From positions 1 to 58,213 of IMG/VR virus record IMGVR_UViG_3300043466_000797: a stretch of DNA of 58,213 bases; one strand, written 5' to 3'. Source of the DNA: a virus. The notes below the pieces were generated by a model. The model saw only the letters and a list, made by a program, of their open reading frames with translations, was not told the DNA's origin and ran no database searches. This document shows, one piece after another, positions 14,910 to 58,085 of this stretch; positions within the stretch are counted from its first letter, which is position 1, and each line of letters begins with the position of its first letter. The translations under genes and the position numbers were made by a program.

Positions 14910-15837
14910 GGGTAAGTATATATTAAGAGTAGACAATAATGTTATTGCTGAATGCGATAATGTTATTACGGAAGATGGCCTTTCAATAATTAGAAACTAC
15001 CTTGCTGGATCTGCTAGATCATGGGCAGGCTCAATTGCTGTTGGCGCATTAAATTTAAATAATCCAACAACTACAGACTCCGCATTAGAATTCGAAATAT
15101 CAAGGGTTCCAGTTTTAATTTCTAGCGTTGACGATTCAGAGATAGTACTAAATTCAACTTTAGGGCAGGATCTGGAGGGAAGGATTTTTGAACTAGGACT
15201 TTACCCAGAGGTAGTAAATACTACATCGCTGGGCTTTGATGATAAAATAATTGCAACTTTTTCTGAGGTATGGACTGACTCTTCTGGGGTAGAACTAACA
15301 TCTGGTAATTTTTCTGGAACAGAAGCATCTGTTGATGGACGATCTGGATATAGAAACCTTATCATAGGAAATTCTGGAATTACTGCAATTCTAGAATCTG
15401 GAATTGATATCTCTGGCTACACACAACTTGATAGCATAACTATTCTTTATAATACATATTCAACAGGAAGTAACAAAACTGTCAGAATAACATTTTCAGA
15501 TGATCAACTTCCAACAGCAGGAACAAAGTATTATGACTTTACTCTAAGTGGATCTGCAACTGGATATAAAACTGTAACGACATTATTGGGTAATTTTATT
15601 ACTACTGGAGACTTTAATAATAATGTATCTAAAATTACAGTTTCTTCATCTGCAGCATCAGGAGCGATAGTTCATTTAGATGCAATTAAATTTAATGATA
15701 CTGATGAAACCAACCTAGACTTTGCCCTAGTTAGCCGTGCTTTAGTAGGATCTGCAGGAGGTAACACTTCTAATGATTATATTGTTAAGCCATCTGGCGT
15801 AGAAATGGATATAGAATATAGGTTGGAGATTAGTTAA
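14902..15837 (+). CDS. Minor tail protein, beta-rich
   Basis: 311 residues starting at TTG 14902, which overlaps the previous TAA. The opening (residues 9-35, containing NNVIAECDNVITEDGLSIIR) and RIFELGLYP at about residue 94 follow a pattern I associate with phage tail-fibre adaptor proteins. The C-terminal half looks like a jelly-roll carbohydrate-binding fold. It is probably part of the tail tip that contacts the cell surface. Confidence 0.55.
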   Translation: MVKGKYILRVDNNVIAECDNVITEDGLSIIRNYLAGSARSWAGSIAVGALNLNNPTTTDSALEFEISRVPVLISSVDDSEIVLNSTLGQDLEGRIFELGLYPEVVNTTSLGFDDKIIATFSEVWTDSSGVELTSGNFSGTEASVDGRSGYRNLIIGNSGITAILESGIDISGYTQLDSITILYNTYSTGSNKTVRITFSDDQLPTAGTKYYDFTLSGSATGYKTVTTLLGNFITTGDFNNNVSKITVSSSAASGAIVHLDAIKFNDTDETNLDFALVSRALVGSAGGNTSNDYIVKPSGVEMDIEYRLEIS

Positions 15838-24184: not shown

Positions 24185-24383
24185 ATCAACAAATGTTAGA
24201 GTTGAACTACAATTTGTAAGAAATCTTGGAAATTATGAGAGCCTTAGAGTATCTATCGGCGTGGAAGATTATGTTCGACAGGGAGAAACTGTTGACGCAG
24301 CAACCGATAGGGTGTATTCTTTTGTAGAAGAGAAGGTAATCGAAAAGGTTTCAGAAATTGAGAAGGAGTTGAAGAATGGCTAA
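24165..24383 (+). CDS. Small conserved-looking protein upstream of helicase
   Basis: 72 residues from ATG 24165; an in-frame TTG sits one codon earlier. A beta-rich first half (VRVELQFVRNLGNYESLRVS) is followed by a helical end (VYSFVEEKVIEKVSEIEKEL). This beta-then-amphipathic-helix layout with a conserved-type GETVDAA turn is common for small proteins near phage recombination genes. Function unknown. Confidence 0.6.
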   Translation: MTTHNHESTNVRVELQFVRNLGNYESLRVSIGVEDYVRQGETVDAATDRVYSFVEEKVIEKVSEIEKELKNG

Positions 24384-24699
24384 GGCTGATACTAAACAGC
24401 CATATGCACTTCTAAGTCTTTATGAAAAACTGTATTCTGACAAATACAATAAGATTGCCCGACTTAACAAGTTTAAGGAAAAGTGGGCCATGCAAGATGT
24501 TATTGAATCAGTCGGCTATGACAGGGCGAGAGAATTGCTTGAGTATTATTTCCGTGTTACTAAGCAGGGGCATCCACTTCAATGGTTCTTCTATAATTTC
24601 GACAGATTAGATGACATGCTGCTACAATCAAACGAGGATGCTCGTCGTCGCCAAAAGTTGCGAGAGGCTACTAAGAAAATGGTGGAGGAAAGTTCATGA
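24376..24699 (+). CDS. Protein preceding the replicative helicase, possible loader
   Basis: 107 residues, basic and helical (KYNKIARLNKFKEKWAMQDV, GYDRARELLEYYFRVTK, then HPLQWFFYNFDRLDDMLLQ). It ends in a 4-base overlap with the helicase start, so the two are translationally coupled. Small helical proteins in this place are often helicase loaders or adaptors. That role is inference from context. Confidence 0.55.
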   Translation: MAKADTKQPYALLSLYEKLYSDKYNKIARLNKFKEKWAMQDVIESVGYDRARELLEYYFRVTKQGHPLQWFFYNFDRLDDMLLQSNEDARRRQKLREATKKMVEESS

Positions 24700-25922
24700 A
24701 TACAGAAGCAGCAGTAATTACATCAGTATGTCAGAACAAAGATATTGCTACTATCTTAGCAGATAATGTTGATGATATTTTCCAGTCTCACCGCGATGTT
24801 TGGGAAGGTCTAAAGTCTTATTATTACAAGTTTAAGTCTGTACCAGATGCCAATGTCCTTCAGGAAAAGTTTAGAGATTTTGAGCCTGTTAAGGTAACTG
24901 CTGAGACTGGGTACTATCTTGATCAACTAAAGAATGAATATCTTGCATCTCGTATGCGTAATTTACTCATGAAGAGTGGATCATCACTAAAAGAAAATGC
25001 TGCCGCTAGGGTTCTTGCAGATATGCAATCAGAAATTGCATCTCTTTCAAGGCTCACCAATAATGTGCGCGACGTTGATCTGACAGATTACGAACTTGCA
25101 GAAAAGCATATTATTGCTGTTCAAGAACGCTCTGCTGTAATGGGTGGTAGCCCAGGCATTAAGACGGGCTTCACGGCACTAGATTTAGCCTACCCTACTG
25201 GTATGGCACCTGGACATTTAATTGTTGCTATCGGCTGGCCTGGACGCGGTAAGACATGGCTCACAGCGTATCTTGCTTGCAAAGCGTGGGAGCAGGGATT
25301 CAAGCCTATGATTGTTTCTCTAGAGATGAGTCCAGAGAATATGCGTGACCGTATTTATACTATGCTTGGAAGCGGAATGTTTAGAGCCTCCGACTTTTCC
25401 CGTGGCAATATTAACATTGATGACTTCCACAATTGGGCAAAGAAGCGTTTTGATGATAAGAATAGTTTTATTCTAGTATCTAACGAGGGGACAAATGAAG
25501 TTACACCGCAGACAGTACAGGGTAAAATCGATCAGCATCGCCCCGACCTTGTTATCTTGGATTATCACCAGTTGTTTAATGATACTAAGCGATCTAATTC
25601 TGAAGTTGAGCGGAACCGTAATATCTCGCGGGAATTCAAACTATTAGCCGTTCGTAATAATATCCCCGTCATTGATATTACAGCAGCCACAATGGACGAT
25701 GTATCAGATCAAGATTCACCACCACTACTATCACAGGTAGCATGGTCAAAGGCTATTGAATATGATGCTGATATGGCAATGGCTGTACATCGTCATCCAG
25801 ATACAAATATCATTGAAGTCGTTAGCCGAAAGAACCGTCATGGAACAGAATTTGCATTCTATCTAGACTGGGATATTGATCGCGGAGTAGTAAAAGAGAT
25901 CTATGACGATGTACCCGTTTGA
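24696..25922 (+). CDS. dnaB: DnaB-like replicative DNA helicase
   Basis: 408 residues. The RecA-like core shows Walker A GWPGRGKTW (about 179-187), the DnaB signature VSLEMSPENMRDR (about 208-220), Walker B LVILDYHQL (about 285-293) and a late KNRHG segment. The N-terminal 150 residues are a short, divergent helical domain. It unwinds DNA ahead of the phage polymerase and should recruit the primase encoded downstream. It is slightly shorter than bacterial DnaB, as is usual for phage forms. Confidence 0.92.
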   Translation: MNTEAAVITSVCQNKDIATILADNVDDIFQSHRDVWEGLKSYYYKFKSVPDANVLQEKFRDFEPVKVTAETGYYLDQLKNEYLASRMRNLLMKSGSSLKENAAARVLADMQSEIASLSRLTNNVRDVDLTDYELAEKHIIAVQERSAVMGGSPGIKTGFTALDLAYPTGMAPGHLIVAIGWPGRGKTWLTAYLACKAWEQGFKPMIVSLEMSPENMRDRIYTMLGSGMFRASDFSRGNINIDDFHNWAKKRFDDKNSFILVSNEGTNEVTPQTVQGKIDQHRPDLVILDYHQLFNDTKRSNSEVERNRNISREFKLLAVRNNIPVIDITAATMDDVSDQDSPPLLSQVAWSKAIEYDADMAMAVHRHPDTNIIEVVSRKNRHGTEFAFYLDWDIDRGVVKEIYDDVPV

Positions 25923-26234: not shown

Positions 26235-27194
26235 ATGCTCTTGGAAACTTACAGCCCCTCGCACATGCGAGCAATAGTAAGGCAACTTGGCCTGCACGTT
26301 GTAAGCGAAACATCTAATGACTTTTTATGCTTATGTCCATTCCATGGCAATAGGCATACACCATCATTTTCTGTAAGCCATCAGAAGGGCTTATATCTAT
26401 GCTTTAATCCATCATGTGGAGCCAGCGGAACTATTGTTGAGTTAGTAAAAAATATTACACATCGTAATGAATTTGAGGCATTAAGATTTATTATTTCTGC
26501 ACAGCAGACTGCACAGGAAAATTTCGAAGAAGAACTTGCAGAAATTCTAGACGAAAAGCCTGAGTACTCCGACTTTGACCAGAATGTCTTAGATCGCCTG
26601 CACTCCCAGATAAATGATAGATCTAGAGAATATCTAAATGGGCGCGGTATAAATGATGAATCAATAGAGCACTTTAAACTTGGATATTCTGCAAGCCAAG
26701 ACATGGTAATTGTTCCAGTACATTCACCAGATGGAATTCCAGTAGGTCTTGTAGGTAGATCAATAGAGGGTAAGTCTTTTAAAAATAGTACAGGGCTGCC
26801 AAGAAACAAGACTATGTTTAATATTCATCGTGCCAAAAGAATGGGCGGGACTGCCATCATAGTAGAGTCCTCCTTTGATGCTATTAGAGTACATCAGTCT
26901 GGATATCCAAATGTTGTTGCTACTCTAGGAGGCTCCATGTCAAAGATAAATCTTAGTAATCTTAATAGAAACTTTAGTAAGATTATCATCATGACTGATG
27001 CTGACGAGGCGGGAAGAAGCCTTGGGAAACTCATAGCAAATACATTAAAGACAAAAGAAGTCTTGTGGGCACACTACTCAAATGATATTCTATATCCACA
27101 TGATGCGAAAGATGTTGGGGATATGACAGAAGAAGAGATTAGAACTTGTATAGAAAATTCCCTTGCAGACTACGAATACAGAATGGTACAATAG
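26235..27194 (+). CDS. dnaG: DnaG-like DNA primase
   Basis: 319 residues. The N-terminal CHC2 zinc domain has CPFH (about 34-37) and CFNPSCGASG (about 56-65). The TOPRIM domain has the conserved Glu in IIVESSFDAI (near 208-217) and the DxD in IIMTDADEAGRS (near 251-261). It makes RNA primers for the DnaE-type polymerase. It lacks the long C-terminal helicase-binding domain of bacterial DnaG (about 600 residues), which is common for phage primases. Confidence 0.9.
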   Translation: MLLETYSPSHMRAIVRQLGLHVVSETSNDFLCLCPFHGNRHTPSFSVSHQKGLYLCFNPSCGASGTIVELVKNITHRNEFEALRFIISAQQTAQENFEEELAEILDEKPEYSDFDQNVLDRLHSQINDRSREYLNGRGINDESIEHFKLGYSASQDMVIVPVHSPDGIPVGLVGRSIEGKSFKNSTGLPRNKTMFNIHRAKRMGGTAIIVESSFDAIRVHQSGYPNVVATLGGSMSKINLSNLNRNFSKIIIMTDADEAGRSLGKLIANTLKTKEVLWAHYSNDILYPHDAKDVGDMTEEEIRTCIENSLADYEYRMVQ

Positions 27195-27238: not shown

Positions 27239-27904
27239 ATGGGATTAGTAAAAGGTCTTAAGGCCATGAACCAAACAATTGATCGCCCCGCTGCTTCTTC
27301 AGACGGTCCTCGCGGTCGCTGGCTAAAGTTAAACGATGGTCAGAGTGTAAAGATTAAGTTTCTTCAGGAACTAGATCCTGATTCACCAAATTATAGCGAT
27401 AAGGCTGGATTAGCATTTATTGCTGTTGAGCATACCAACCCATCCGATTACCGTCGCAAGGCTCTCTGTAGCATTGAAGACCAGGGTCGTTGCTTTGGAT
27501 GCGAGATGCATCGTCGTGACCCAAAGGCTGGTTGGAAGGGTCGTAGCCGACTCTACTGCAACATCCTTGTAAACGATGGTAATGAAGATCCATACGTTGC
27601 AATTTTCTCTCAGGGTACTGGCCCCAAGTCAGCCACACCTGAGATTATCCAGTACGCTGGAGAAACTGGAAGTATCACTTCCAACACCTGGCGATTGAAG
27701 CGCACAGGAGAGCGTACCGATACAAACTACAGCATCATTCCATTACCTACGGATTCAGATCCAGTAGATATTGACGAACTAGAACTGTTCGATCTTGAGA
27801 AGATCGCAGTTCGTGACGTTCCTTACGATGAGCAAGAAGGCTTCTATACAGGCGTTTCTGGTGGAGAAGATAGCGGTTCATCATCATCAAATGTTGAATG
27901 GTAA
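27239..27904 (+). CDS. Single-stranded DNA-binding protein (gp32-like)
   Basis: 221 residues. The layout is that of phage gp32-type SSBs: a short basic N-terminus, an OB-like core with a Cys/His zinc cluster (ALCSIEDQGRCFGCEMH, near residues 75-91) and an acidic, Ser/Gly-rich tail (GGEDSGSSSSNVEW) for protein contacts. Codons are CGT/GCT/ATC-rich, pointing to high expression. An AGGAG site and TACAAT/TATATATA sequences precede it. A long perfect hairpin follows. Confidence 0.75.
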   Translation: MGLVKGLKAMNQTIDRPAASSDGPRGRWLKLNDGQSVKIKFLQELDPDSPNYSDKAGLAFIAVEHTNPSDYRRKALCSIEDQGRCFGCEMHRRDPKAGWKGRSRLYCNILVNDGNEDPYVAIFSQGTGPKSATPEIIQYAGETGSITSNTWRLKRTGERTDTNYSIIPLPTDSDPVDIDELELFDLEKIAVRDVPYDEQEGFYTGVSGGEDSGSSSSNVEW

Positions 27905-27965: not shown

Positions 27966-30900
27966 GTGACTGATTTAGTACATCTACATGTTCATAGCCA
28001 TTACAGTCTAATGGATGGCCTTTCCTCGCCAGCAGAATTGTTGTCAGCAGCGAAGGATCTAGGTCAGACGGCTCTTGCTGTGACTGACCACGGCACACTA
28101 TCTTCCCACCGCGATATGCAGAAGTCAGCACGCGAGGCGGGATTAAAGCCAATCCTAGGCGTAGAGGCTTATATCTCAGAGACAGACAGATTCGACAAGC
28201 GAGACATTAAGAGTCGTGACGACAATACTCAGGTATTCAACCACATCATCTTGCTTGCTAAGAATCAGGATGGGCTACAGAATCTTCAGAAGTTGTCTGA
28301 GTTAGCCTGGAATGAAGGTTTCTACCGTAAGCCGCGAATCGACTTTGAAGTGCTAAGTGATTATGGTGACGGCCTTGTGGTTCTTTCAGGATGCCTTAAT
28401 GGTCTTATCTCTAAAGCGATTCAGCGTGGGGATGAAGAGAAGGCACGAAACATGCTCAAGTGGTTTAAGAACCGTTTTGACGATGACTTCTATATGGAAG
28501 TGCAGCCGCATAATCCGCCAGAGATTAATCATCAGTTGCTTAACCTAGCAGATGAATACAAGATAAAGCCAGTCACTACCTCAGATTGCCATTTTGCGCG
28601 GGAAGATCAGAGAGCGGTAGAGGAAGCACTACTTATCCTTTCCACTAAGCCTAATATGAACAAAGATGCATCATACGCATCTGGAAAGCAGATTAAGGAC
28701 GTATTCGAAAGACTTAATCATCTTTACCCAGAACGTCCCATTTCTTTTGAGGGCTGGGATCTATTTATTCAGAATCGTCTGGACATTGATACTTGGTATA
28801 AGAATTCTGGAATTGATCGCACAGACATTTATGAAAGTACTCTAGAAATTGCTGATAAAGTTGGAGAGTATGAGTATTACGAAAATCTATCATTACTTCC
28901 CAAGCCAAAGAAAGATCCTAATGTTCAGTTAGCAGAGATGTGTGGATATGCTCTTATCGCTAAGGGTCTAGAGACTGAAGAATATATTAATAGACTTAAT
29001 GAAGAACTAGAGGTAATTAAGGACAAGGATTTTGCCTCTTACTTCCTAGTTGTTGCAGACATGATTCAGTATGCCAAGGGAAACGATATTCTAGTTGGCC
29101 CAGGAAGAGGCTCTGCAGCAGGGTCACTAGTTTGCTATCTATTGGGAATTACAGAGGTAGACCCAATTGAATATGATTTACTGTTTTTCCGATTTATTAA
29201 TCCAGAGCGCAATGACTTCCCCGATATCGATACAGACTTTATGGATAGGCGTCGTAACGAGGTTAAGGAGTATCTACGCAAAAAGTTTAAGAATGTTGCT
29301 AGTATCTCTACCTTCCAATATTTTAAGGATAAGGGTGTTGTTCGTGACGCCTCTCGCGTGTTTGCAGTACCTTTAGGAGATGTTAATAAGGCTCTTAAGG
29401 GAATCGAAACATGGGAGGACTTTGAATCGAATAAGAATACCCGATGGTTCCGTGACAAATACCCAGAAGTCACAGACTTGGCTGCAAAATTGCGTGGTCG
29501 CATTCGCGCAGTTGGTGTCCATGCAGCAGGAGTTGTAGTTGCTAAAGAGCCAATCTCAAAGTACGCTCCGATGGAAACTAGGAGTGACGCTAACGATAAG
29601 GTTAGTGGAAGGGTTCCAGTTATAGCCTATGACATGGAGCAGGCAGCAGATATTGGATTGATCAAACTAGATGCGCTAGGACTTAAGACTCTATCTGTAG
29701 TGAAAGATACTTTAGATATTATCAAAGATCGTCGCGGCAAGGATATTGATCTACATTCTATTTCATTAGACGATGAATTAGTTTACCAAGATCTGTCTAA
29801 TGGATTTACCAAGGGTGTATTCCAGGCAGAAGCAACTCCGTACACCAATCTGCTAATTAAAATGGGTGTAGAAAGATTTGAGGATCTTGTCGCTTCTAAT
29901 GCTCTAGTACGTCCTGGCGCTATGAATACTGTAGGAGCAGCGTACATTGCACGCAAGCAGGGGCGGGAACAAATTAAATACGTCCATGAGATCATGAAGC
30001 CATTTACTGAGCGTACATATGGTGTTATTATCTATCAGGAACAGGTTATGCAAGCCTGCGTCCACCTGGGAGGAATGACTTGGGCAGAGGCTGATAAGGT
30101 TCGTAAGATTATTGGCAAGAAGAAGGATGCCAAGGAGTTTGATGCATTCAAAGATAAGTTTATTTCAGGAGCAGTAAATCATATTAGTGCAGAGGATGCA
30201 GAACATCTATGGCACGACTTTGAGGCACACGCAGGATATTCATTTAATCGCTCCCACGCTGTTGCATATTCAATGTTGTCATACTGGACTGCATGGCTTA
30301 AGCATTACTATCCACTAGAGTTCATCTTTGCTATTCTTAAAAACGAGGGCGACAAGGATGCTAGAACAGAGTACTTGCTAGAGGCAAAGAGATTGAACCT
30401 AAAGGTTTTACTTCCTCATGTTAATGAATCTGACATAGATTTTAGTTTACAGGGAGATAGCATTAGATTCGGACTTGCAGATATTAAGTTTATTAGTGAA
30501 AGTATTAGCAATAAATTAATTGCAGCAAGGCCATTTAGTAATTACGCAGAGTTAATTGAATTTTCCCAGAAGAAGGGGAGTGGTGTTAACAGTCGTGCCA
30601 TTTCTGCACTTAACGCAATCGGTGGCGCGGCCTTCGATGATAATCCCCGTACTGGAAATGAATCTGAGAATTACTATGAGTATCTAAATATTCCTAAGTT
30701 TGACGTTAAGGGAATTACTCCGTATGTAAGATCACAAGTATCTCCACTAGAAGACTTTACAGAAGACGGTTGCTACGTTCTTCTTGCTATGGTTAAGTCA
30801 ATTAAGAAGGGGCAGGGATGGTCAAGAGTAGAATTGGTAGACGATACTGGAGCAATCGGGATCTTTCATTCCGAAAATACACAGATCGAAACAGGAAACA

Positions 30901-31241
30901 TGTACTTCTTCTTAGTAGGGGACAATCGAATTCATCGATATGTTACTATAGAGGACGTAGTTGATCGTAAGGCAGATCCCTTTATTGAATTCCTTTATAT
31001 GGAAGAAGTCCTTGCTGGAGAAGGAGAAAAGTTTATAGTAGATTTTACTAACTATAAAACAAAGGCTGGCAAGATGATGGCACACGTTATTGTGTCTAAT
31101 AAAGATAAAGAAATGCAGAGACTGATTGTGTTCCCCAAACTATATGCACAAGCATTAGGAAAGATGAAGTCGGGAACAATTGTTGATTTGCAAATAGGTA
31201 AAATGGAAGATGGAACACTAACAGTTAGGAATGTAGGATGA
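27966..31241 (+). CDS. dnaE: DNA polymerase III alpha subunit (DnaE type)
   Basis: 1091 residues starting at GTG 27966 after AGGAGA. The PHP domain is at the N-terminus (HVHSHYSLMDG, then AVTDHGTL). The polymerase core has GPGRGSAAGSLVCYLLG (near 377-393) and the catalytic PDIDTDF (near 419-425). Helix-hairpin-helix-like and OB-fold segments follow (YVLLAMVKSIKKGQGWSRVE near 935-955). It is the phage replicative polymerase. It is a little shorter than bacterial DnaE1 but complete in motifs. Confidence 0.95.
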   Translation: MTDLVHLHVHSHYSLMDGLSSPAELLSAAKDLGQTALAVTDHGTLSSHRDMQKSAREAGLKPILGVEAYISETDRFDKRDIKSRDDNTQVFNHIILLAKNQDGLQNLQKLSELAWNEGFYRKPRIDFEVLSDYGDGLVVLSGCLNGLISKAIQRGDEEKARNMLKWFKNRFDDDFYMEVQPHNPPEINHQLLNLADEYKIKPVTTSDCHFAREDQRAVEEALLILSTKPNMNKDASYASGKQIKDVFERLNHLYPERPISFEGWDLFIQNRLDIDTWYKNSGIDRTDIYESTLEIADKVGEYEYYENLSLLPKPKKDPNVQLAEMCGYALIAKGLETEEYINRLNEELEVIKDKDFASYFLVVADMIQYAKGNDILVGPGRGSAAGSLVCYLLGITEVDPIEYDLLFFRFINPERNDFPDIDTDFMDRRRNEVKEYLRKKFKNVASISTFQYFKDKGVVRDASRVFAVPLGDVNKALKGIETWEDFESNKNTRWFRDKYPEVTDLAAKLRGRIRAVGVHAAGVVVAKEPISKYAPMETRSDANDKVSGRVPVIAYDMEQAADIGLIKLDALGLKTLSVVKDTLDIIKDRRGKDIDLHSISLDDELVYQDLSNGFTKGVFQAEATPYTNLLIKMGVERFEDLVASNALVRPGAMNTVGAAYIARKQGREQIKYVHEIMKPFTERTYGVIIYQEQVMQACVHLGGMTWAEADKVRKIIGKKKDAKEFDAFKDKFISGAVNHISAEDAEHLWHDFEAHAGYSFNRSHAVAYSMLSYWTAWLKHYYPLEFIFAILKNEGDKDARTEYLLEAKRLNLKVLLPHVNESDIDFSLQGDSIRFGLADIKFISESISNKLIAARPFSNYAELIEFSQKKGSGVNSRAISALNAIGGAAFDDNPRTGNESENYYEYLNIPKFDVKGITPYVRSQVSPLEDFTEDGCYVLLAMVKSIKKGQGWSRVELVDDTGAIGIFHSENTQIETGNMYFFLVGDNRIHRYVTIEDVVDRKADPFIEFLYMEEVLAGEGEKFIVDFTNYKTKAGKMMAHVIVSNKDKEMQRLIVFPKLYAQALGKMKSGTIVDLQIGKMEDGTLTVRNVG

Positions 31242-35316: not shown

Positions 35317-35474
35317 AGTTATATGAAGACGTAAATTGGCTACGCAAGAGATATATCATAGAAAAAAAGACGACTCAGCAAATGGCTAAAGAGGCTGGAT
35401 GCTCTCACATGACAATCCAAAGAGCATTAGAAAAATATGGACTGATTAAAAATCAGAGAAGGTGGACTAAATGA
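35313..35474 (+). CDS. Small helix-turn-helix protein
   Basis: 53 residues between two ATGA overlaps (RuvC stop at 35314-35316, next start at 35471). Residues 19-44 (KTTQQMAKEAGCSHMTIQRA, then LEKYG) form a clear homeodomain-like/sigma-r4-type helix-turn-helix. Flanking residues are basic. It may be a regulator of the following sugar cassette or a DNA-architecture protein. Confidence 0.75.
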   Translation: MKLYEDVNWLRKRYIIEKKTTQQMAKEAGCSHMTIQRALEKYGLIKNQRRWTK

Positions 35475-36883
35475 ATACAATGTCCTATGTTGTTTGTTGG
35501 GACTCAGTTTACGAAAACTGTCTTAATATTGAAATGAATTTAAAGTCTAATAATTTAGATTATAAAATAATTAATTCATCAAGTTCCCCATCATTAAATA
35601 ATCAATGGATGGACATTGGCAATATTTGGTACTACCGACAGTTTCATGCCGCCCTAAAAGATTTTTCAAATACCGACCATGAACTATTTTGTTTTATTGC
35701 GGGAGATCTAGTAGGAGATTTCGCACAAGTAATTATAACTGCCCAGGAAGAATTAAAAAATGAAAAAATTGGAGTATACGCACCATATTTCACTCATGAG
35801 GCTTGGGGAGAAGGATGCTCTTCTATATCAGAATTAGATAATAATTTAATTATATCAACGCAAACAGATGGCATATTCACAATTCTTAATAAAGAATTGG
35901 CTAGCGAGATGCTTAGTTTTTTTGATTATCTATCTCAAACAGTTGATCTATCACAGATGAAATCTGGCTGGGGTGTAGATTATGTGTATAACATAATGGC
36001 TATCTATAAAGATTTCTATATTTGTAGAGATAGAAGATTTGTTATTACCCATCCAGTAGGAAGTAGTTATGATCATGGTCCAGCCACTTCTGAAATGAAT
36101 GCAGTTCTAGAAACATTTAGCAGTTTTTGTGAAAATAATTTTATCTCCCGCGCAGAGATAAATAGATTATTCAGATTAATAAATCATCGTCGTGATGGTG
36201 GTAGTGTAACTATTTCTGAATTATACCCATCTTCAAATGCTTTCCCCTATCACCTGATTAGTATTAATGATGATAGGATTAAGAACAAGCAAAATATTCA
36301 TCAAATAATGGGTGATAGAGATTATCTAGGTTTAGCCTGTTTAAATGGTAACGATCAGTCAGCCCGTGAGAAGTTCTTTGCGGATAACCCAGAATTTAAG
36401 ATAACATGGGATGGATTCAAGGTAGGCGAGATAGGCAACTTTGCTAGCCATTTCATTGCCTGGAAGTATCTTGTTAATTCGTCAATGGACCGCGTATTAA
36501 TTTTTGAGGATGATTCAGTAGTTGAAGAAGACTTTATTGAAAGAGTTTCTAAGATGATGGAAGAACTTCCTAGAGACTGGGATATTTTTAGTATTTTCGT
36601 GCATCCAAATCAACATGATAGATATAATGATAAAGACTCTGGAGATGTTGTTAAGGCTTACCAGGATTGGTCAACACTATGCTATGTTATATCTAAGTCT
36701 GGGGCTAGAAAACTATATAAGTATGTTTGCGATAATGGAATGGACTATCCAACAGATTGGTTTATATTCCGACATGCAGAGGAGCATAATTTTAATGTAT
36801 TTACTCTTCACCCAAAATGTGCGCTTCCAGTAGTAATTGATGAAAGTCAGCCATCTCTAGTTCAGAATACTGAGAAAATATGA
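35471..36883 (+). CDS. Two-domain glycosyltransferase, GT25-like C-terminus
   Basis: 470 residues. Residues 1-250 resemble a GT-A-type glycosyltransferase domain (VVCWDSVYENCLNIEMNL at the start, GWGVDYVYNIMA near 170). Residues 260-465 look like family 25: HFIAWKYLVNSSMDRVLIFE then DDS (near 325-347), with a DxD-type metal site, and a late DYPTDWFIF. It probably adds sugars to a phage protein, DNA base or host surface polymer. It is coupled by 4-base overlap to a nucleotidyltransferase. Confidence 0.7.
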   Translation: MNTMSYVVCWDSVYENCLNIEMNLKSNNLDYKIINSSSSPSLNNQWMDIGNIWYYRQFHAALKDFSNTDHELFCFIAGDLVGDFAQVIITAQEELKNEKIGVYAPYFTHEAWGEGCSSISELDNNLIISTQTDGIFTILNKELASEMLSFFDYLSQTVDLSQMKSGWGVDYVYNIMAIYKDFYICRDRRFVITHPVGSSYDHGPATSEMNAVLETFSSFCENNFISRAEINRLFRLINHRRDGGSVTISELYPSSNAFPYHLISINDDRIKNKQNIHQIMGDRDYLGLACLNGNDQSAREKFFADNPEFKITWDGFKVGEIGNFASHFIAWKYLVNSSMDRVLIFEDDSVVEEDFIERVSKMMEELPRDWDIFSIFVHPNQHDRYNDKDSGDVVKAYQDWSTLCYVISKSGARKLYKYVCDNGMDYPTDWFIFRHAEEHNFNVFTLHPKCALPVVIDESQPSLVQNTEKI

Positions 36884-37530
36884 TACTAGGAGTTCTTCCC
36901 GCCTCAGGTAAAGCATCAAGACTTAGTGGTATCCCAAAGTTTTGTTTACCTATAAATGATAATCAGACCCTTCTTGAGTGGCATGTAAATAAAATGAAAG
37001 AAGTTTGTGATGATGTTAGAATTTCTACAAGAGAAATGTGGTTACCAATAGTTGAAAGATTGAACCTTGATGTAGAAATAGTTATTGTTGAGCCGTCAAG
37101 TATGGCTGATGCAATATTAAAAACATCTAATAATAAATCTGATAATATTATAGTTGGAATGCCAGATACTTTTATTTTAAAAAGTAAAGATAATTTCTAT
37201 GGAAGAATGATAGAAAAGGACTCCCCAGTAGTCTTAGCCTCATGGGAATGTGATAAATTCTTAAAGGGAAGGGTCGGACAGATAGAATTATCAGGCGATA
37301 GGGTATTAAGTATTGTTGATAAGGATGAGAACTGTCCCTTTGAAAGAATGTGGGGAGCGATATATTTAAATGGTACGGTAGGGCTACTGGACCCTAAACA
37401 AGATGTTATAGGCGATCAGTTCAATTCTTGGATAAGAGATGGGGTAGTGACTACTCATGTTCCATGCTCTGGTAATTATGTTGACGCTGGTAATTTTATT
37501 GGATTGAAGAGGATGTATTCTGAATTATGA
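36880..37530 (+). CDS. Sugar-phosphate nucleotidyltransferase
   Basis: 216 residues. The N-terminus LPASGKASRLSGIPKFCLPI follows the LxAxGxGxRL...KPxLP signature that binds the nucleotide phosphate, with one Gly replaced by Ala. GMPDTF near residue 90 fits the metal-binding Asp. It probably makes an activated sugar (NDP-sugar) for the glycosyltransferase encoded directly upstream. Confidence 0.75.
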   Translation: MILGVLPASGKASRLSGIPKFCLPINDNQTLLEWHVNKMKEVCDDVRISTREMWLPIVERLNLDVEIVIVEPSSMADAILKTSNNKSDNIIVGMPDTFILKSKDNFYGRMIEKDSPVVLASWECDKFLKGRVGQIELSGDRVLSIVDKDENCPFERMWGAIYLNGTVGLLDPKQDVIGDQFNSWIRDGVVTTHVPCSGNYVDAGNFIGLKRMYSEL

Positions 37531-38174
37531 AATCTTTAAATGAATATTTAAAATCTGGCAGACTGTCGTATTCACAAAATAATCAAGACTTGCTAGTAAC
37601 TTATTATTATGGAGATAAGCCTGGGTTTTTTGTGGAATTTGGCGCGATGGATGGGATAGAGTTAAGTAATACTCTACTTCTAGAAAAATATTATGGATGG
37701 AATGGTATAGTAGCAGAACCAATACCTATGTTCTCTGATAAAATATCTAAAAATAGATCTTGCAGTATAGAATATAATTGTGTATCAAATAGAAGCGGGG
37801 ATATTGTAGAGTTTTATGAAACATCTTTCCCAGCACTTTCAACAATTGCAGATTATGCATATAGTGATCATTGGGGTCAGACAAGAGAAGATCATGTAGT
37901 TCATAAAATTGAAACTATATCTTTAAAGGATATGCTTAGTAAGCACAATGCACCAAGTATTGTTGACTATTTATCAATTGATACTGAAGGCTCCGAATTT
38001 GATATTTTATCCGCTTTTGATTTTTCTACAAGGTTTAACATAATAACGTGCGAGCATAATCACTCAAGTATGAGGGAGCCAATATATCAATTATTAACTT
38101 CACATGGGTATAAAAGAATATATGAAGACATATCTGCATGGGAAGATTGGTATATTCATGAAGATTTTAGATAA
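37527..38174 (+). CDS. FkbM-family SAM methyltransferase
   Basis: 215 residues. FVEFGAMDGIELSNTLLLE (near 32-50), GWNGIVAEPIP (near 56-66) and DYLSIDTEGSEFDIL (near 148-162) are the ordered FkbM signatures for S-adenosylmethionine binding. FkbM enzymes O-methylate sugars or related groups, so it probably methylates the product of the two preceding enzymes. All three genes are linked by 4-base overlaps. Confidence 0.85.
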   Translation: MKSLNEYLKSGRLSYSQNNQDLLVTYYYGDKPGFFVEFGAMDGIELSNTLLLEKYYGWNGIVAEPIPMFSDKISKNRSCSIEYNCVSNRSGDIVEFYETSFPALSTIADYAYSDHWGQTREDHVVHKIETISLKDMLSKHNAPSIVDYLSIDTEGSEFDILSAFDFSTRFNIITCEHNHSSMREPIYQLLTSHGYKRIYEDISAWEDWYIHEDFR

Positions 38175-38204
38175 TAAATTAAAGAATAGTATAAGGACTA
38201 ATCA

Positions 38205-39245
38205 ATGAAGATGTATAAAGATTCATCAATGTGCTTTGATGATATTTTATTAGTACCACAGCACTCTACGGTTTTAAGCCGCCGCGAAGTAGATATTTCT
38301 ACAATTATTGGAACTAATGGTAGAAGCATAAGAATGACTGTTCCAGTTATTGCTGCACCTATGGATACGGTATGTGATGGAAATATGGCATATTCCATAA
38401 GAAAGTTAGGCGGCTTTGGAATTATACATAGGTATATGTCAATAGAATTTATGAGGAGAGAACTTGACTTTATAAGTTCTACAGATGCTGTTTCTTTAGG
38501 AGTGGCAGTTGGCGCTAAGGGAGATTACTTAGAGAGGGCTTTTGTTGCCGTTTCTCACGGTGCCCATTTAATTTTAGTAGATACCGCTAATGGTCATAGT
38601 GAATATGCAATTAAGGCAGTTAAAGAGATTCGTCGTAATGTCGGAAATAAGGTCCACGTTATGGCTGGAAATGTTTCAACTTATGAAGGATTTATGAGAC
38701 TTCAGGACGCTGGGGCAGATTCTATTAGAGTTGGAATCGGTGGAGGATCTGTATGTACTACTAGAATTGTTAGTGGTCATGGTATGCCAACACTAGCATC
38801 TATTTTAGATGTAAGATCTAAGATACCGTATGGTGATGGCGCATCCTTAGTTGCTGATGGAGGTATCAGAAATAGTGGCGATGCTGTTAAGGCTTTAGCC
38901 GCAGGAGCAGATGCGGTGATGCTTGGAAGTTACCTTGCTGGTACTGATGAGTCTCCTGGAGAAGTGCATGTAAGTGGTGGTAAAAAATATAAAATCTTTA
39001 GAGGCATGGCTAGCGCAGAAGCACAGTTGAGTGCAATTGGTAATGTTTCAGTTGCAGAAGGAGTAGAGACAACAGTATCCTACAAAGGCACGCTAGAGTA
39101 CGTCATTGAAGAATTTAAGGGTGGTCTAGGTAGTGGACTTTCATATACTGGCGCTCATAATCTAAAAGAATTATATGAAGATTCTATGTTTATCAAAGTA
39201 AGTCAGGCAAGTCTTAGTGAAAGTAGGCCACATGCCCAACATTAA
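38205..39245 (+). CDS. guaB: IMP dehydrogenase / GMP reductase-family enzyme
   Basis: 346 residues of (beta/alpha)8 fold. FDDILLVPQHSTVLSRREVD starts the barrel, AAPMDTV follows, and the catalytic loop GGGSVCTTR (near 180-188) carries the active Cys. LVADGGIRNSGDAVKALAAG and FRGMASAEAQ bind IMP phosphate. The final ESRPHAQH matches IMP dehydrogenase more than GMP reductase. The regulatory CBS pair is absent, explaining the short length. It would raise guanine nucleotide supply. Confidence 0.85.
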   Translation: MKMYKDSSMCFDDILLVPQHSTVLSRREVDISTIIGTNGRSIRMTVPVIAAPMDTVCDGNMAYSIRKLGGFGIIHRYMSIEFMRRELDFISSTDAVSLGVAVGAKGDYLERAFVAVSHGAHLILVDTANGHSEYAIKAVKEIRRNVGNKVHVMAGNVSTYEGFMRLQDAGADSIRVGIGGGSVCTTRIVSGHGMPTLASILDVRSKIPYGDGASLVADGGIRNSGDAVKALAAGADAVMLGSYLAGTDESPGEVHVSGGKKYKIFRGMASAEAQLSAIGNVSVAEGVETTVSYKGTLEYVIEEFKGGLGSGLSYTGAHNLKELYEDSMFIKVSQASLSESRPHAQH

Positions 39246-49360: not shown

Positions 49361-49697
49361 TGATCTTGGCTTAGATGCCGATAATCTAAAATGGTATCAG
49401 TTGGCTGCATGTATAAATGCTGATATTAATATGTTTTATGATGATTATGAAACAGATAAATTTGTATCTGCACAGGTAGATGAGATGTGTCTTCATTGTC
49501 CAGTTATCAAACAATGCTATAATGAAGGTGTAAGAAATAAAGAACGTGGTGTCTGGGGCGGTGTGTATATGGACCTTGGACGAATAGACAAAGAATATAA
49601 TGCACATAAGACACAAGAAACATGGAAAAGACTGAAGGCTATACATGGATCAAGTATTCTACACAAAAGAAATGGCGAAAGCGATAAGGCAAGTTAA
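49344..49697 (+). CDS. whiB: WhiB-like transcription factor
   Basis: 117 residues. The four conserved Cys are C23, C49, C52 and C58 (CxxC...C pattern MCLHCPVIKQC), holding an oxygen- or NO-sensitive 4Fe-4S cluster. GVWGG (69-73) is the family turn that contacts the host sigma factor. Phage WhiB proteins can repress or compete with host WhiB and can alter host gene expression. This family is found in actinobacteria and their phages, so it fixes the host phylum with fair confidence. Confidence 0.92.
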   Translation: MSNIIDDLGLDADNLKWYQLAACINADINMFYDDYETDKFVSAQVDEMCLHCPVIKQCYNEGVRNKERGVWGGVYMDLGRIDKEYNAHKTQETWKRLKAIHGSSILHKRNGESDKAS

Positions 49698-52691: not shown

Positions 52692-53252
52692 GTGCAAGAT
52701 AAGACAAGTAATTTAATTATATGGCTAGTAATTGGAGCGATATTCATCGTTACAGTTGGCGCTCTAATTTTTATGTTTAGTTCTTCCGCAAATGCTGGTG
52801 GAGATAAAGTAAGAATATGTCACGCCACCGCATCACAATCTAACCCATATGTAAACATAGAAATTGATTCTTCAAGTATTGAGAATCCTAATGATAAGAA
52901 GTATTTAAACGGACATGGAGATCATGAAAAGGATATCATTCCTCCATTTTCGTTTAATGAATCATCTTTCCCTGGCATGAATTGGGACGATACTGGTCAA
53001 GTGATCTGGAATAATGACTGTAAAGTAGTCACTCCAACACCTACACCAACGCCCACTCCAACGGAGCCAACTCCAACCCCAACACCAACGGAGCCAACTC
53101 CAACACCAACGCCGACAGAGCCAACTCCAGAACCAACGGAGCCAACTCCTACGCCAGAACCAACGGAGACAAATCCAACACCAATCCCAATCCCAACAGA
53201 CATACCCGCTGGTGGGGGAGGCATGGCTGTGGAAGTCCCCGTTTTAAAATAA
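52692..53252 (+). CDS. Membrane-anchored or secreted PT-rich surface protein (short form)
   Basis: 186 residues from GTG 52692. Residues 8-36 are a signal peptide or membrane anchor (IIWLVIGAIFIVTVGALIFM, ending SSANA). Residues 38-115 contain KVRICHATASQSNPYVNIEI and NGHGDHEKDIIPPFSF, a domain known from actinobacterial surface proteins. Residues 117-170 are Pro/Thr/Glu repeats spanning the wall. The zero-frame ends at TAA 53250, directly after an in-phase slippery heptamer that would extend it into a sortase domain. Confidence 0.75.
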   Translation: MQDKTSNLIIWLVIGAIFIVTVGALIFMFSSSANAGGDKVRICHATASQSNPYVNIEIDSSSIENPNDKKYLNGHGDHEKDIIPPFSFNESSFPGMNWDDTGQVIWNNDCKVVTPTPTPTPTPTEPTPTPTPTEPTPTPTPTEPTPEPTEPTPTPEPTETNPTPIPIPTDIPAGGGGMAVEVPVLK

Positions 53253-55897: not shown

Positions 55898-56127
55898 TGA
55901 AAAGCCCATGCACTAGTAATAAGCACTCTGAATATACATGCCTCATAAAATGGGGAGTGAGCAGTAAGAAGTTCGCAGTAAATAAATGGTGTAAGGAATG
56001 CATTCAGCACCATTCCCACACTCATCTCGTACAGGAATATCTAGCCACGAATGAGCGCGAAAGTAAGAAAGAAATATCAGATATTGAGTCTAAGCCGCGA
56101 CGCGGCAGGAAGAAGAAGGTGGCATGA
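55897..56127 (+). CDS. Zinc-finger-like basic protein
   Basis: 76 residues. Cys5, Cys15, Cys32 and Cys35 with HHSHTH (39-44) could form a zinc site, and the end is very basic (KPRRGRKKKVA). This layout suggests DNA binding. It lies near the origin region and could take part in replication control, which is inference. Confidence 0.55.
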   Translation: MKSPCTSNKHSEYTCLIKWGVSSKKFAVNKWCKECIQHHSHTHLVQEYLATNERESKKEISDIESKPRRGRKKKVA

Positions 56128-56366
56128 GAAATTTTGCCATTACCACAGGACGATGGACTGGCATATGGGCATGGATCTGGTATGCTGATGTAATGCATGA
56201 ATCTGATGATGTACCCTATACGTCATTTAATGCACTCACCAGGCGCGGGGCATTAAGAAAGGCTACCAGATACATTAGAAGGCTTACCTCTCCCATAGAG
56301 AATAAGCAAGCATTCATTTATGCATATGATCAATCACGATTTACATTGGAGAAGATAGATGTTTAG
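56124..56366 (+). CDS. Small aromatic hypothetical protein
   Basis: 80 residues. The N-terminal half is Trp-rich (GRWTGIWAWIWYADVM) and the middle basic (RRGALRKATRYIRRL). Not clearly a membrane protein. It has a 4-base overlap with the previous gene and overlaps the next by 8 bases. Confidence 0.5.
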   Translation: MRNFAITTGRWTGIWAWIWYADVMHESDDVPYTSFNALTRRGALRKATRYIRRLTSPIENKQAFIYAYDQSRFTLEKIDV

Positions 56367-56472: not shown

Positions 56473-56596
56473 GTATCTTCTATTTCTTACCATATTCTAT
56501 TTTGTTACTTTTCAGGTGACAAAGGTTATTTTGAGAAGGAATAAGAAGCAATATAATATCCAACATTATTATCCACAGAATGCGATAAATATATGA
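56453..56596 (+). CDS. 47-residue membrane mini-protein
   Basis: From ATG 56453 (or 56456). Residues 7-25 form a membrane helix (KYLLFLTIFYFVTFQVTKV) followed by a basic, Tyr/Asn-rich tail. It contains the first DnaA box of the origin region in its 3' half (56569-56577). First of three tiny membrane proteins in tandem. Confidence 0.45.
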   Translation: MMKSLGKYLLFLTIFYFVTFQVTKVILRRNKKQYNIQHYYPQNAINI

Positions 56597-56703
56597 ATGA
56601 ATCACCGCAAGGCGGGGATTGCCTGACGGCAATTCTGGGCGGGACTTTTACAATTGTCTTCATTACTATAGTAATAATAAGTATACTAGGATGGATCTTC
56701 TAA
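56593..56703 (+). CDS. 36-residue membrane mini-protein
   Basis: ATG 56593 overlaps the previous TGA by 4 bases. A Gly/Asp-rich start (NESPQGGDC) leads to one membrane helix (GTFTIVFITIVIISILGWIF) reaching the C-terminus. Size and topology resemble tiny holins or pinholins, but nothing is diagnostic. Confidence 0.45.
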   Translation: MNESPQGGDCLTAILGGTFTIVFITIVIISILGWIF

Positions 56704-56704
56704 C

Positions 56705-56794
56705 ATGACCAATAAGGAAACAATCAAGATAGTTATCTATTCAGCAGTAGTTATCTATTTGACAGCAAGAATAGGCTATCTTTTATCCACATAG
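56705..56794 (+). CDS. 29-residue membrane mini-protein
   Basis: ATG 56705 lies one base after the previous stop. A short charged start (TNKETIK) precedes one hydrophobic stretch (IVIYSAVVIYLTARIGYLLS). Its stop codon overlaps the region of a DnaA box. Last rightward gene before the origin; may be chance. Confidence 0.35.
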   Translation: MTNKETIKIVIYSAVVIYLTARIGYLLST

Positions 56795-56902
56795 GGCCAT
56801 ATAGGTGTGGATAAGTTGTGCATAAAATACTAAGAAATGTGGAAAAACCTATACAAACAAATTAAAAATAGTATAGGTGTAATTAGGCGCCCCGTCCGAT
56901 AA

Positions 56903-57279
56903 TCGTAATGTCAAGGAAAAATGGGTGATTTTCCCTAAAAATTGCATAAATTTGCCCCCAAAATAGGAAATTTCCCAGAAAAATGTAAAATTCTGGGAAA
57001 AAATAGGGTTCTTCGTAATATCAAATGTGGGCGGGGTATCTTGGAAAATTCTGCGATATTCTTTACTCTTCGTAATATGTATTATATATACTATAGGGGG
57101 AATCATATACTTATCCCGCCCTGTGGATAAATAAAATTAGTTATTCATATACTGTGGATAACATGTGGATAAATTTGCCAAAAATTCCAGCCGATTTTTT
57201 GACTCGTCGTAATATCAAATTTTAAAAATATCGGGAAATCCCGAAAAATTCCAGCCAATTTTTAGGTTCGTCGTAATAT
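56903..57279 (+). repeat. Five TCGTAATRT direct repeats (iteron-like)
   Basis: Copies start at 56903 (TCGTAATGT), 57013, 57070, 57207 and 57271. Two flavours alternate: copies at 57013 and 57207 continue CAAAT, those at 57070 and 57271 continue into GTATTA-type sequence. A longer duplication (AAATTCCAGCC...TTTTT) precedes the last two. They interleave with the DnaA boxes and could bind a phage initiator or repressor. Confidence 0.75.
56971..57000. repeat. 10-bp perfect inverted repeat in the origin
   Basis: TTTCCCAGAA (56971-56980) and TTCTGGGAAA (56991-57000) flank a 10-base AT loop. It may be a cruciform or protein site within the origin, or a bidirectional terminator separating rightward and leftward transcription. 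Confidence 0.6.
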
Positions 57280-57318
57280 GTGTATTAGATTAATTTGATC
57301 GGGCTGCCCCGAAACTTC

Positions 57319-57543
57319 CTATTTGTCAACATACTTCTGGAAAATGTAAATCCAAACGTAGTCAAATCGGATCTTTTCTTCCTCTGTCCATGTGCCCCAC
57401 TTCTTCTTGATGATATCCCTGGTATCAGAAATATCTCCAAGTTCCTTGTCATCCTTGGCAACGGAGATGTATTCATCCCACCGCTCAGGGGTAAAGGCAG
57501 CACCGCTGCTCATGAAGATCTCAAACATTCTAATTGCTTTCAT
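57319..57543 (-). CDS. Leftward small acidic protein near the origin
   Basis: 74 residues on the minus strand (start ATG at 57543). Helical with a charged pattern (MFEIFMSSGAAFTPERWDEY, then IIKKKWGTWTEEEKIRFDYV). A GTTGACA-like box lies within its end, and a TCGGG/CCCGA hairpin (57299-57312) follows. It is transcribed towards the origin from the strong promoter at 57679-57708. It could be a replication regulator, by position only. Confidence 0.6.
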   Translation of the reverse strand: MKAIRMFEIFMSSGAAFTPERWDEYISVAKDDKELGDISDTRDIIKKKWGTWTEEEKIRFDYVWIYIFQKYVDK

Positions 57544-57725: not shown

Positions 57726-58085
57726 CTAAGAGTCAAAGCCTCTGCGAACGAACGACGGAGAATAGCGGGATTCATAGTCTTCCCAAGTTCCTCTATTACC
57801 TCCACCGTTATCCGCAAATCCGCGACCAGGGTTATAGTCGGGTACTTCTTCGTAGTCATTCAGCACCTCATGTACGATACGGGAGCCAAGTTCTCCGATA
57901 ACAGGATCACCCACTCCATAGCGGTATTCGATCTCCATTAGCCTAAACCATCCGATAGCAACTTTATTCAGAGCACTCGCAGGAATGACCCCTGCCAGCC
58001 TGACAGCATCAGCAAACTGGTACGGACTGAACATTCGGTTATACGATGCGTCTACGAACGCCTTGATAGCCTTATCCTCTGCCAT
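57726..58085 (-). CDS. Leftward hypothetical protein
   Basis: 119 residues on the minus strand from ATG 58085, after an AAAGGA site. Residues 1-80 are helical (AIKAFVDASYNRMFSPYQFA, then ALNKVAIGWFRLMEIEYRYG); the C-terminal 40 residues are Gly/Arg/Asn/Tyr-rich and flexible (NPGRGFADNGGGNRG), as in nucleic-acid-binding tails. No family recognised. Confidence 0.65.
   Translation of the reverse strand: MAEDKAIKAFVDASYNRMFSPYQFADAVRLAGVIPASALNKVAIGWFRLMEIEYRYGVGDPVIGELGSRIVHEVLNDYEEVPDYNPGRGFADNGGGNRGTWEDYESRYSPSFVRRGFDS

Follow-up and report, generated by a model that had tools for sequence, protein, structure and literature searches.

The window, which is the whole 58,213-nucleotide stretch of DNA analysed (virus record IMGVR_UViG_3300043466_000797, G000 among the genomes compared), contains at 56.57–57.28 kb what is probably a conserved array of binding sites for the host DnaA protein. 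Judged from sequence, this array would be part of a replication origin, either serving as the origin or assisting it. The box cluster itself is real. All six exact copies of the DnaA box TTATCCACA fall within 56569–57172 (604 bp), with none elsewhere on either strand of the 58,213 bases, and two one-mismatch copies sit among them. The preliminary description had counted eight matches, six of them perfect, in about 600 bases, and had noted an inverted pair of boxes; both statements are confirmed. The site is most likely of a known kind, a DnaA-box origin, that is new in this phage family within the literature searched. A literature search returned no report of DnaA boxes or of an origin for the family, and no origin is annotated in the records examined (Samisti12, Karimac, MindFlayer, BillNye and Annadreamy). 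For a Pseudomonas phage, an Ori-Finder prediction with DnaA boxes has been reported (PMC11512268).

The DnaA-box array

The array consists of the following sites.

56569–56577, plus strand: DnaA box TTATCCACA, directly 5' of a possible 36-aa ORF
56783–56791, plus strand: DnaA box TTATCCACA within the 3' terminus of a possible 29-aa ORF (from translation); makes up the left arm of the inverted pair
56806–56814, minus strand: DnaA box TTATCCACA, which completes the inverted pair on the right and is the first of a conserved triple
56817–56825, minus strand: DnaA-box variant TTATGCACA, one mismatch, middle of the triple, 11 bp from 56806
56838–56846, minus strand: DnaA-box variant TTTTCCACA, one mismatch, third of the triple, 21 bp from 56817
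57122–57130, minus strand: DnaA box TTATCCACA
57153–57161, minus strand: DnaA box TTATCCACA, 11 bp to the next box
57164–57172, minus strand: DnaA box TTATCCACA

The inverted pair occupies 56783–56814 and spans 32 bp, arranged as TTATCCACA-14-TGTGGATAA. In 150 third-order Markov simulations, TTATCCACA occurred on average 0.58 times per whole window and at most twice in any 700 bp. When all 9-mers were compared, TGTGGATAA was the most clustered in the window; only a few other 9-mers reach four copies per 700 bases, one of them being ATATTACGA, which belongs to a second repeat in this region. In the alignment, most close relatives differ from the window by one mismatch at the box at 56569 (CTATCCACA).

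Gene layout and base composition

The array lies where two blocks of genes converge. The elements of this junction are as follows.

56124–56366, plus strand: 80-aa ORF, function unassigned, last listed of the rightward block
56593–56703: possible 36-aa ORF, with the box at 56569 directly upstream
56705–56794: possible 29-aa ORF, overlapped at its end by the box at 56783
56795–57318, no strand: stretch of the convergent junction that lacks plausible genes, putative origin core
57079–57121, no strand: short AT-rich segment next to the boxes (TGTATTATATATACTATAG...), a candidate unwinding element from reading of the sequence
57319–57543, minus strand: 74-aa ORF, function unassigned, first of the leftward block
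57726–58085, minus strand: 119-aa ORF in the leftward block, the query with which syntenic regions of relatives were retrieved

Since the boxes at 56783 and 56569 overlap or adjoin possible small ORFs, only the stretch 56795–57318 is free of plausible genes. The switch of gene direction described earlier is present, and its orientation is convergent. The 'strong AT-richness' also described is overstated: the array region does have a lower GC content (0.343, against 0.382 for the whole window), but the difference is only moderate. By duplex stability the region ranks in approximately the top 1% at 50 bp and only in the top 6% at 300 bp.

Raw GC skew changes sign where the gene blocks meet, reaching a maximum there rather than a minimum. 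At four-fold sites the skew has the same coding-strand sign in both gene blocks, with no replication-strand signal. The skew thus tracks coding direction and speaks neither for nor against an origin. The skew check proposed in the preliminary description did find a sign change at the array, but an uninformative one, and GC skew was rejected as origin evidence. To our knowledge, neither a skew minimum nor strand asymmetry is required of phage origins. Inspection of the region by eye gave nothing convincing as a DnaA-trio motif, and an Rfam search there returned only a chance-level match.

A second repeated motif

Interspersed with the boxes is a second motif, which ends in TCGTAAT and was reported as being in a single orientation; it is present as four repeats of 36 nt plus one shorter copy.

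56903–56911, minus strand: fifth, shorter copy (TTGACATTACGA)
56986–57021, plus strand: 36-nt repeat, copy 1, ending in TCGTAATAT
57043–57078, plus strand: 36-nt TCGTAATAT repeat, copy 2
57180–57215, plus strand: 36-nt TCGTAATAT repeat, copy 3
57244–57279, plus strand: 36-nt TCGTAATAT repeat, copy 4

A TTGACA-like sequence overlaps one of these copies. A related element, TCGTAAA, occurs in the corresponding gaps of Streptomyces phages, and in Annadreamy and BillNye it also precedes numerous other genes. This dispersal weakens the motif as a candidate origin iteron, and it is likely to be a site for a regulator or a promoter element. The element TTTACGAAAGGG, often in the form of a short hairpin, likewise precedes many genes at intergenic sites of Annadreamy (L314) and BillNye (L313), where it could be a regulatory repeat linked to gene starts.

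Two other elements were also observed. In sister phages, a conserved GGCGTTCAGGC...TCTGCCAAGT with a strong hairpin and a T-run after it precedes the gap (G008, 99.0–99.15 kb; G010, 26.77–26.87 kb; G009, 28.3–28.45 kb; G014, 67.19–67.29 kb), and resembles a small, structured, terminator-bearing RNA. In the window, direct repeats at 53057–53167 with 27-bp and 21-bp spacing (GCCAACTCC and its neighbours) lie inside the ORF at 52692–53252.

Conservation in related viral genomes

The array was found at the same place in seven close-relative IMG/VR loci that carry the neighbouring 119-aa gene. The spacing of the triple (21 + 11 bp) is kept in all eight aligned sequences, box pairs lie 11–12 bp apart, and close relatives share the pattern TTWTCCACA-12-TTDTNCACA-2-TTATCCACA. 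Across five lineages, mean identity is 0.88 in the box columns and 0.63 in the other columns. Among complete or long relatives, the convergent junction holds the densest box cluster of the genome in G001, G002, G003, G008, G009 and G010.

In a sister clade (G008, G010, G012 and G014) a 10-bp-phased TCCAC triple occurs once per genome, at the junction only. The junctions of G012 and G014 have no exact boxes, and G011 has neither exact boxes nor the phased triple near its predicted switch of gene direction. Some sister phages (G012, G014) have thus lost the array or keep it in degenerate form, and phages of this group can perhaps do without it. Exact direct box pairs were found in 2 of 47 contigs with a related DnaE, most of which are fragments that may miss the junction.

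Among the matches listed for IMG/VR viral contigs, TTATCCACA pairs spaced by 11–13, 20–24 and 30–33 bp are far above expectation. Phased groups of DnaA boxes are therefore not unique to this phage, and the contigs concerned may include plasmids and prophages. The helical phasing of these pairs (loci L146–L225) suggests that arrays of DnaA boxes could be widespread among environmental phages or contigs that resemble phages.

Isolated Streptomyces phages and their satellites

Five Streptomyces phages of the Stanwilliamsviridae (Samisti12, Karimac, MindFlayer, BillNye and Annadreamy) resemble the window in having a gene-poor gap or junction with the densest group of TTATCCACA in the stretch examined, as well as a repeated TCGTAA[AT] element in the gap. 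Two to four exact boxes lie in the corresponding gap or junction of these phages and of Daubenski, Targaryen and Angela, and only one or two are left in Mildred21 and Paradiddles. The inverted pair spans 32 bp in Samisti12, as it does in the window, and 31–33 bp in Karimac, MindFlayer, Daubenski and Angela. When whole genomes were searched, it was confined to the gap or junction. No box was found in Izzy, nor in the 43 kb examined of the Rhodococcus phage Francesca. The Streptomyces phages differ from the window in having fewer boxes, in a long terminal repeat that in some starts nearby, and in their high-GC hosts.

Satellite phages rely on helpers of this kind, having no replication genes themselves (PMC10690885), and give a mixed picture. 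Boxes are absent from the helper-dependent satellite MulchRoom, which suggests that helper-driven satellite replication can proceed without them. In the satellite MiniFlayer (L321) the only exact box lies ~15 bp from a copy of TTCGTAAATG (15230–15263), inside a membrane-protein gene.

Replication genes and affiliation

Because its IMG/VR relatives measure ~100–108 kb, the window is a 58-kb fragment of a ~105-kb genome. It encodes a replication module and a WhiB-domain protein at the following positions.

24376–24699, plus strand: all-helical protein of 107 aa (phrog_11101), encoded immediately ahead of the helicase and for that position alone a candidate helicase loader
24696–25922, plus strand: DnaB-type replicative helicase
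26235–27194, plus strand: DNA primase
27239–27904, plus strand: single-strand DNA-binding protein (SSB)
27966–31241, plus strand: DNA polymerase III alpha (DnaE type)
49392–49565, plus strand: WhiB domain, pointing to an actinobacterial host

Other genes of the window include tail genes, RecA, resolvases, terminase, a glycosyltransferase and IMP dehydrogenase-like genes, together with nine tRNAs. A cassette at 35471–39245 combines the glycosyltransferase, an FkbM-type methyltransferase and an IMP dehydrogenase/GMP reductase-like gene.

The DnaE is 54–56% identical to that of Streptomyces phages of the Stanwilliamsviridae, and the module keeps the order seen in Samisti12 (phrog_11101 homologue, helicase, primase, SSB, DnaE, RecA, resolvase, RecB-like nuclease, RuvC). 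By these sequence comparisons the genome is related to the virulent Streptomyces phages of that family, without being assigned to it as a member. The Stanwilliamsviridae have linear genomes of 125–135 kb with a long direct terminal repeat, 11–12 kb in BE phages (PMC10690885), whereas the relatives of the window measure ~100–108 kb and the ends of G002 overlap by only 127 bp, as those of a circular assembly would. A blastn search of 53.0–58.2 kb against phages gave no matches. Four contigs (the window, L082, L087 and L088) terminate within 0–660 bases of one gene start beyond the gap, perhaps at a terminal-repeat edge or a variable junction. In the leftward arm of G001 (97.5–103.8 kb) and G002 (95–104.8 kb) the GC content is ~0.5, compared with 0.38 for the rest, and the arm carries a host-like second WhiB.

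Neither domain III nor domain IV of DnaA was detected in the phage records searched, and no initiator gene, including any of the RepA type, was recognised among the ORFs scanned, in which small ORFs were partly covered. A full replication gene set without a recognised initiator counts in favour of an origin that uses host DnaA. The 107-aa protein is conserved and helical and gave a good fold model; this had no PDB match, and a role as helicase loader is thus unsupported on structural grounds.

The WhiB gene suggests that the host is probably an actinobacterium. In the actinobacterial genomes sampled, TTATCCACA lies beside dnaA in small-genome, low-GC species, which appear to be freshwater Nanopelagicales, and high-GC species have mainly TTGTCCACA. 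The Streptomyces phages retain TTATCCACA although the sampled high-GC actinobacteria favour TTGTCCACA. A scan of bacterial genomes with DnaE found no link to a particular host. The oriC of the low-GC, small-genome actinobacteria resembles the window in the box TTATCCACA, in its close pairs and in a gene-free interval adjoining AT-rich DNA. However, the phage site has no dnaA or dnaN alongside, more boxes per 700 bp, and a position at a convergent junction.

Alternative functions of the array

The boxes are clustered above chance, keep their order and helical spacing, and form one site per genome, that of Samisti12 included. Together with a motif found in host dnaA regions, the conserved geometry and the lack of a detected phage DnaA, these features partly support the earlier proposal of a phage origin with host DnaA boxes. 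Counting against it are the missing or few exact boxes in some relatives (G011, G012, G014, Mildred21, Paradiddles, Francesca), the moderate AT-richness and the lack of boxes in the satellite MulchRoom. The same boxes could instead act as a sink, lowering free host DnaA so as to stop or retime chromosome initiation in the manner of datA, with the phage origin lying elsewhere. Dense exact boxes generally bind DnaA strongly, the AT-rich element beside them is not outstanding, and phage copy number increases during infection, so that the sites would multiply. Plasmids bearing boxes titrate DnaA (PMC5835720), and like datA they share with the window a compact group of exact and near-exact boxes. 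However, the window has fewer sites than these systems, with strong helical spacing and a junction location. Six to eight sites per genome, or two to four in the Streptomyces phages, are few for a sink, and a gene-poor junction with helical phasing better fits an initiation complex; we consider a sink unlikely.

Control of transcription, in which DnaA or a protein of the same recognition regulates promoters at the junction and switches between the gene blocks, seems less likely still. The placement of the second motif before many genes of Annadreamy and BillNye indicates that regulatory repeats occur in the phage family, and the TTGACA-like sequence in one copy also fits such a role. Against this, genes converge on the region and so leave little downstream to control, promoter-like matches are no commoner than in shuffled sequence, and the boxes are not dispersed upstream of genes. 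There is also only a slight chance that the array is a relic of a former DnaA-dependent origin, for example that of a plasmid-like ancestor, unused in lytic growth. Its loss in some sister phages would be expected of a relic, but conservation is clearly higher in the box columns than elsewhere in the gap, and the spacing is kept over large distances. In combining boxes with a second repeated motif the window recalls P1-type plasmid-prophage origins, which have RepA iterons and DnaA boxes. It differs from them in that no RepA-like initiator was recognised, the genome is of virulent type with its own DnaE and DnaB, and the repeats do not lie beside an initiator gene. Least probable is a genome-end or packaging signal. 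The boxes do lie within 60–95 bp of where the long terminal repeat begins in Samisti12 (boxes 122951–123016, repeat from 123045) and Karimac (boxes 119227–119259, repeat from 119320), but in Annadreamy and BillNye they are ~5–6 kb from it, and they match the motif of host dnaA regions. This explanation was mostly rejected.

Proposed mechanism and implications

With the array read as an origin or part of one, its motif, spacing and conservation suggest that host DnaA would bind the phased boxes. The resulting complex could open an AT-rich stretch such as 57079–57121, and the phage DnaB helicase might be loaded at the opened site, possibly aided by the 107-aa protein. From the array, the fork would then be taken over by the primase, SSB and DnaE of the phage, whose genes are present. 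The second repeat (TCGTAATAT) is probably bound by another phage or host factor that controls the array or nearby promoters.

A broader claim is put forward tentatively: it is quite possible that, throughout a family of virulent actinobacterial phages which themselves encode helicase, primase, SSB and C-family polymerase, lytic replication begins with host DnaA at a conserved oriC-like array. How large phages with a bacterial-type replisome (DnaE, DnaB) start replication is mostly unknown. The conserved array offers a precise and cheap experimental target, and Samisti12-like phages grow on laboratory strains of Streptomyces. If the claim is true, it would explain why these phages have a replisome without a recognised initiator. 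Phage replication and initiation of the host chromosome would then compete for the same initiator and, if a virulent phage depends on host DnaA, its yield would be tied to the replication state of the host.
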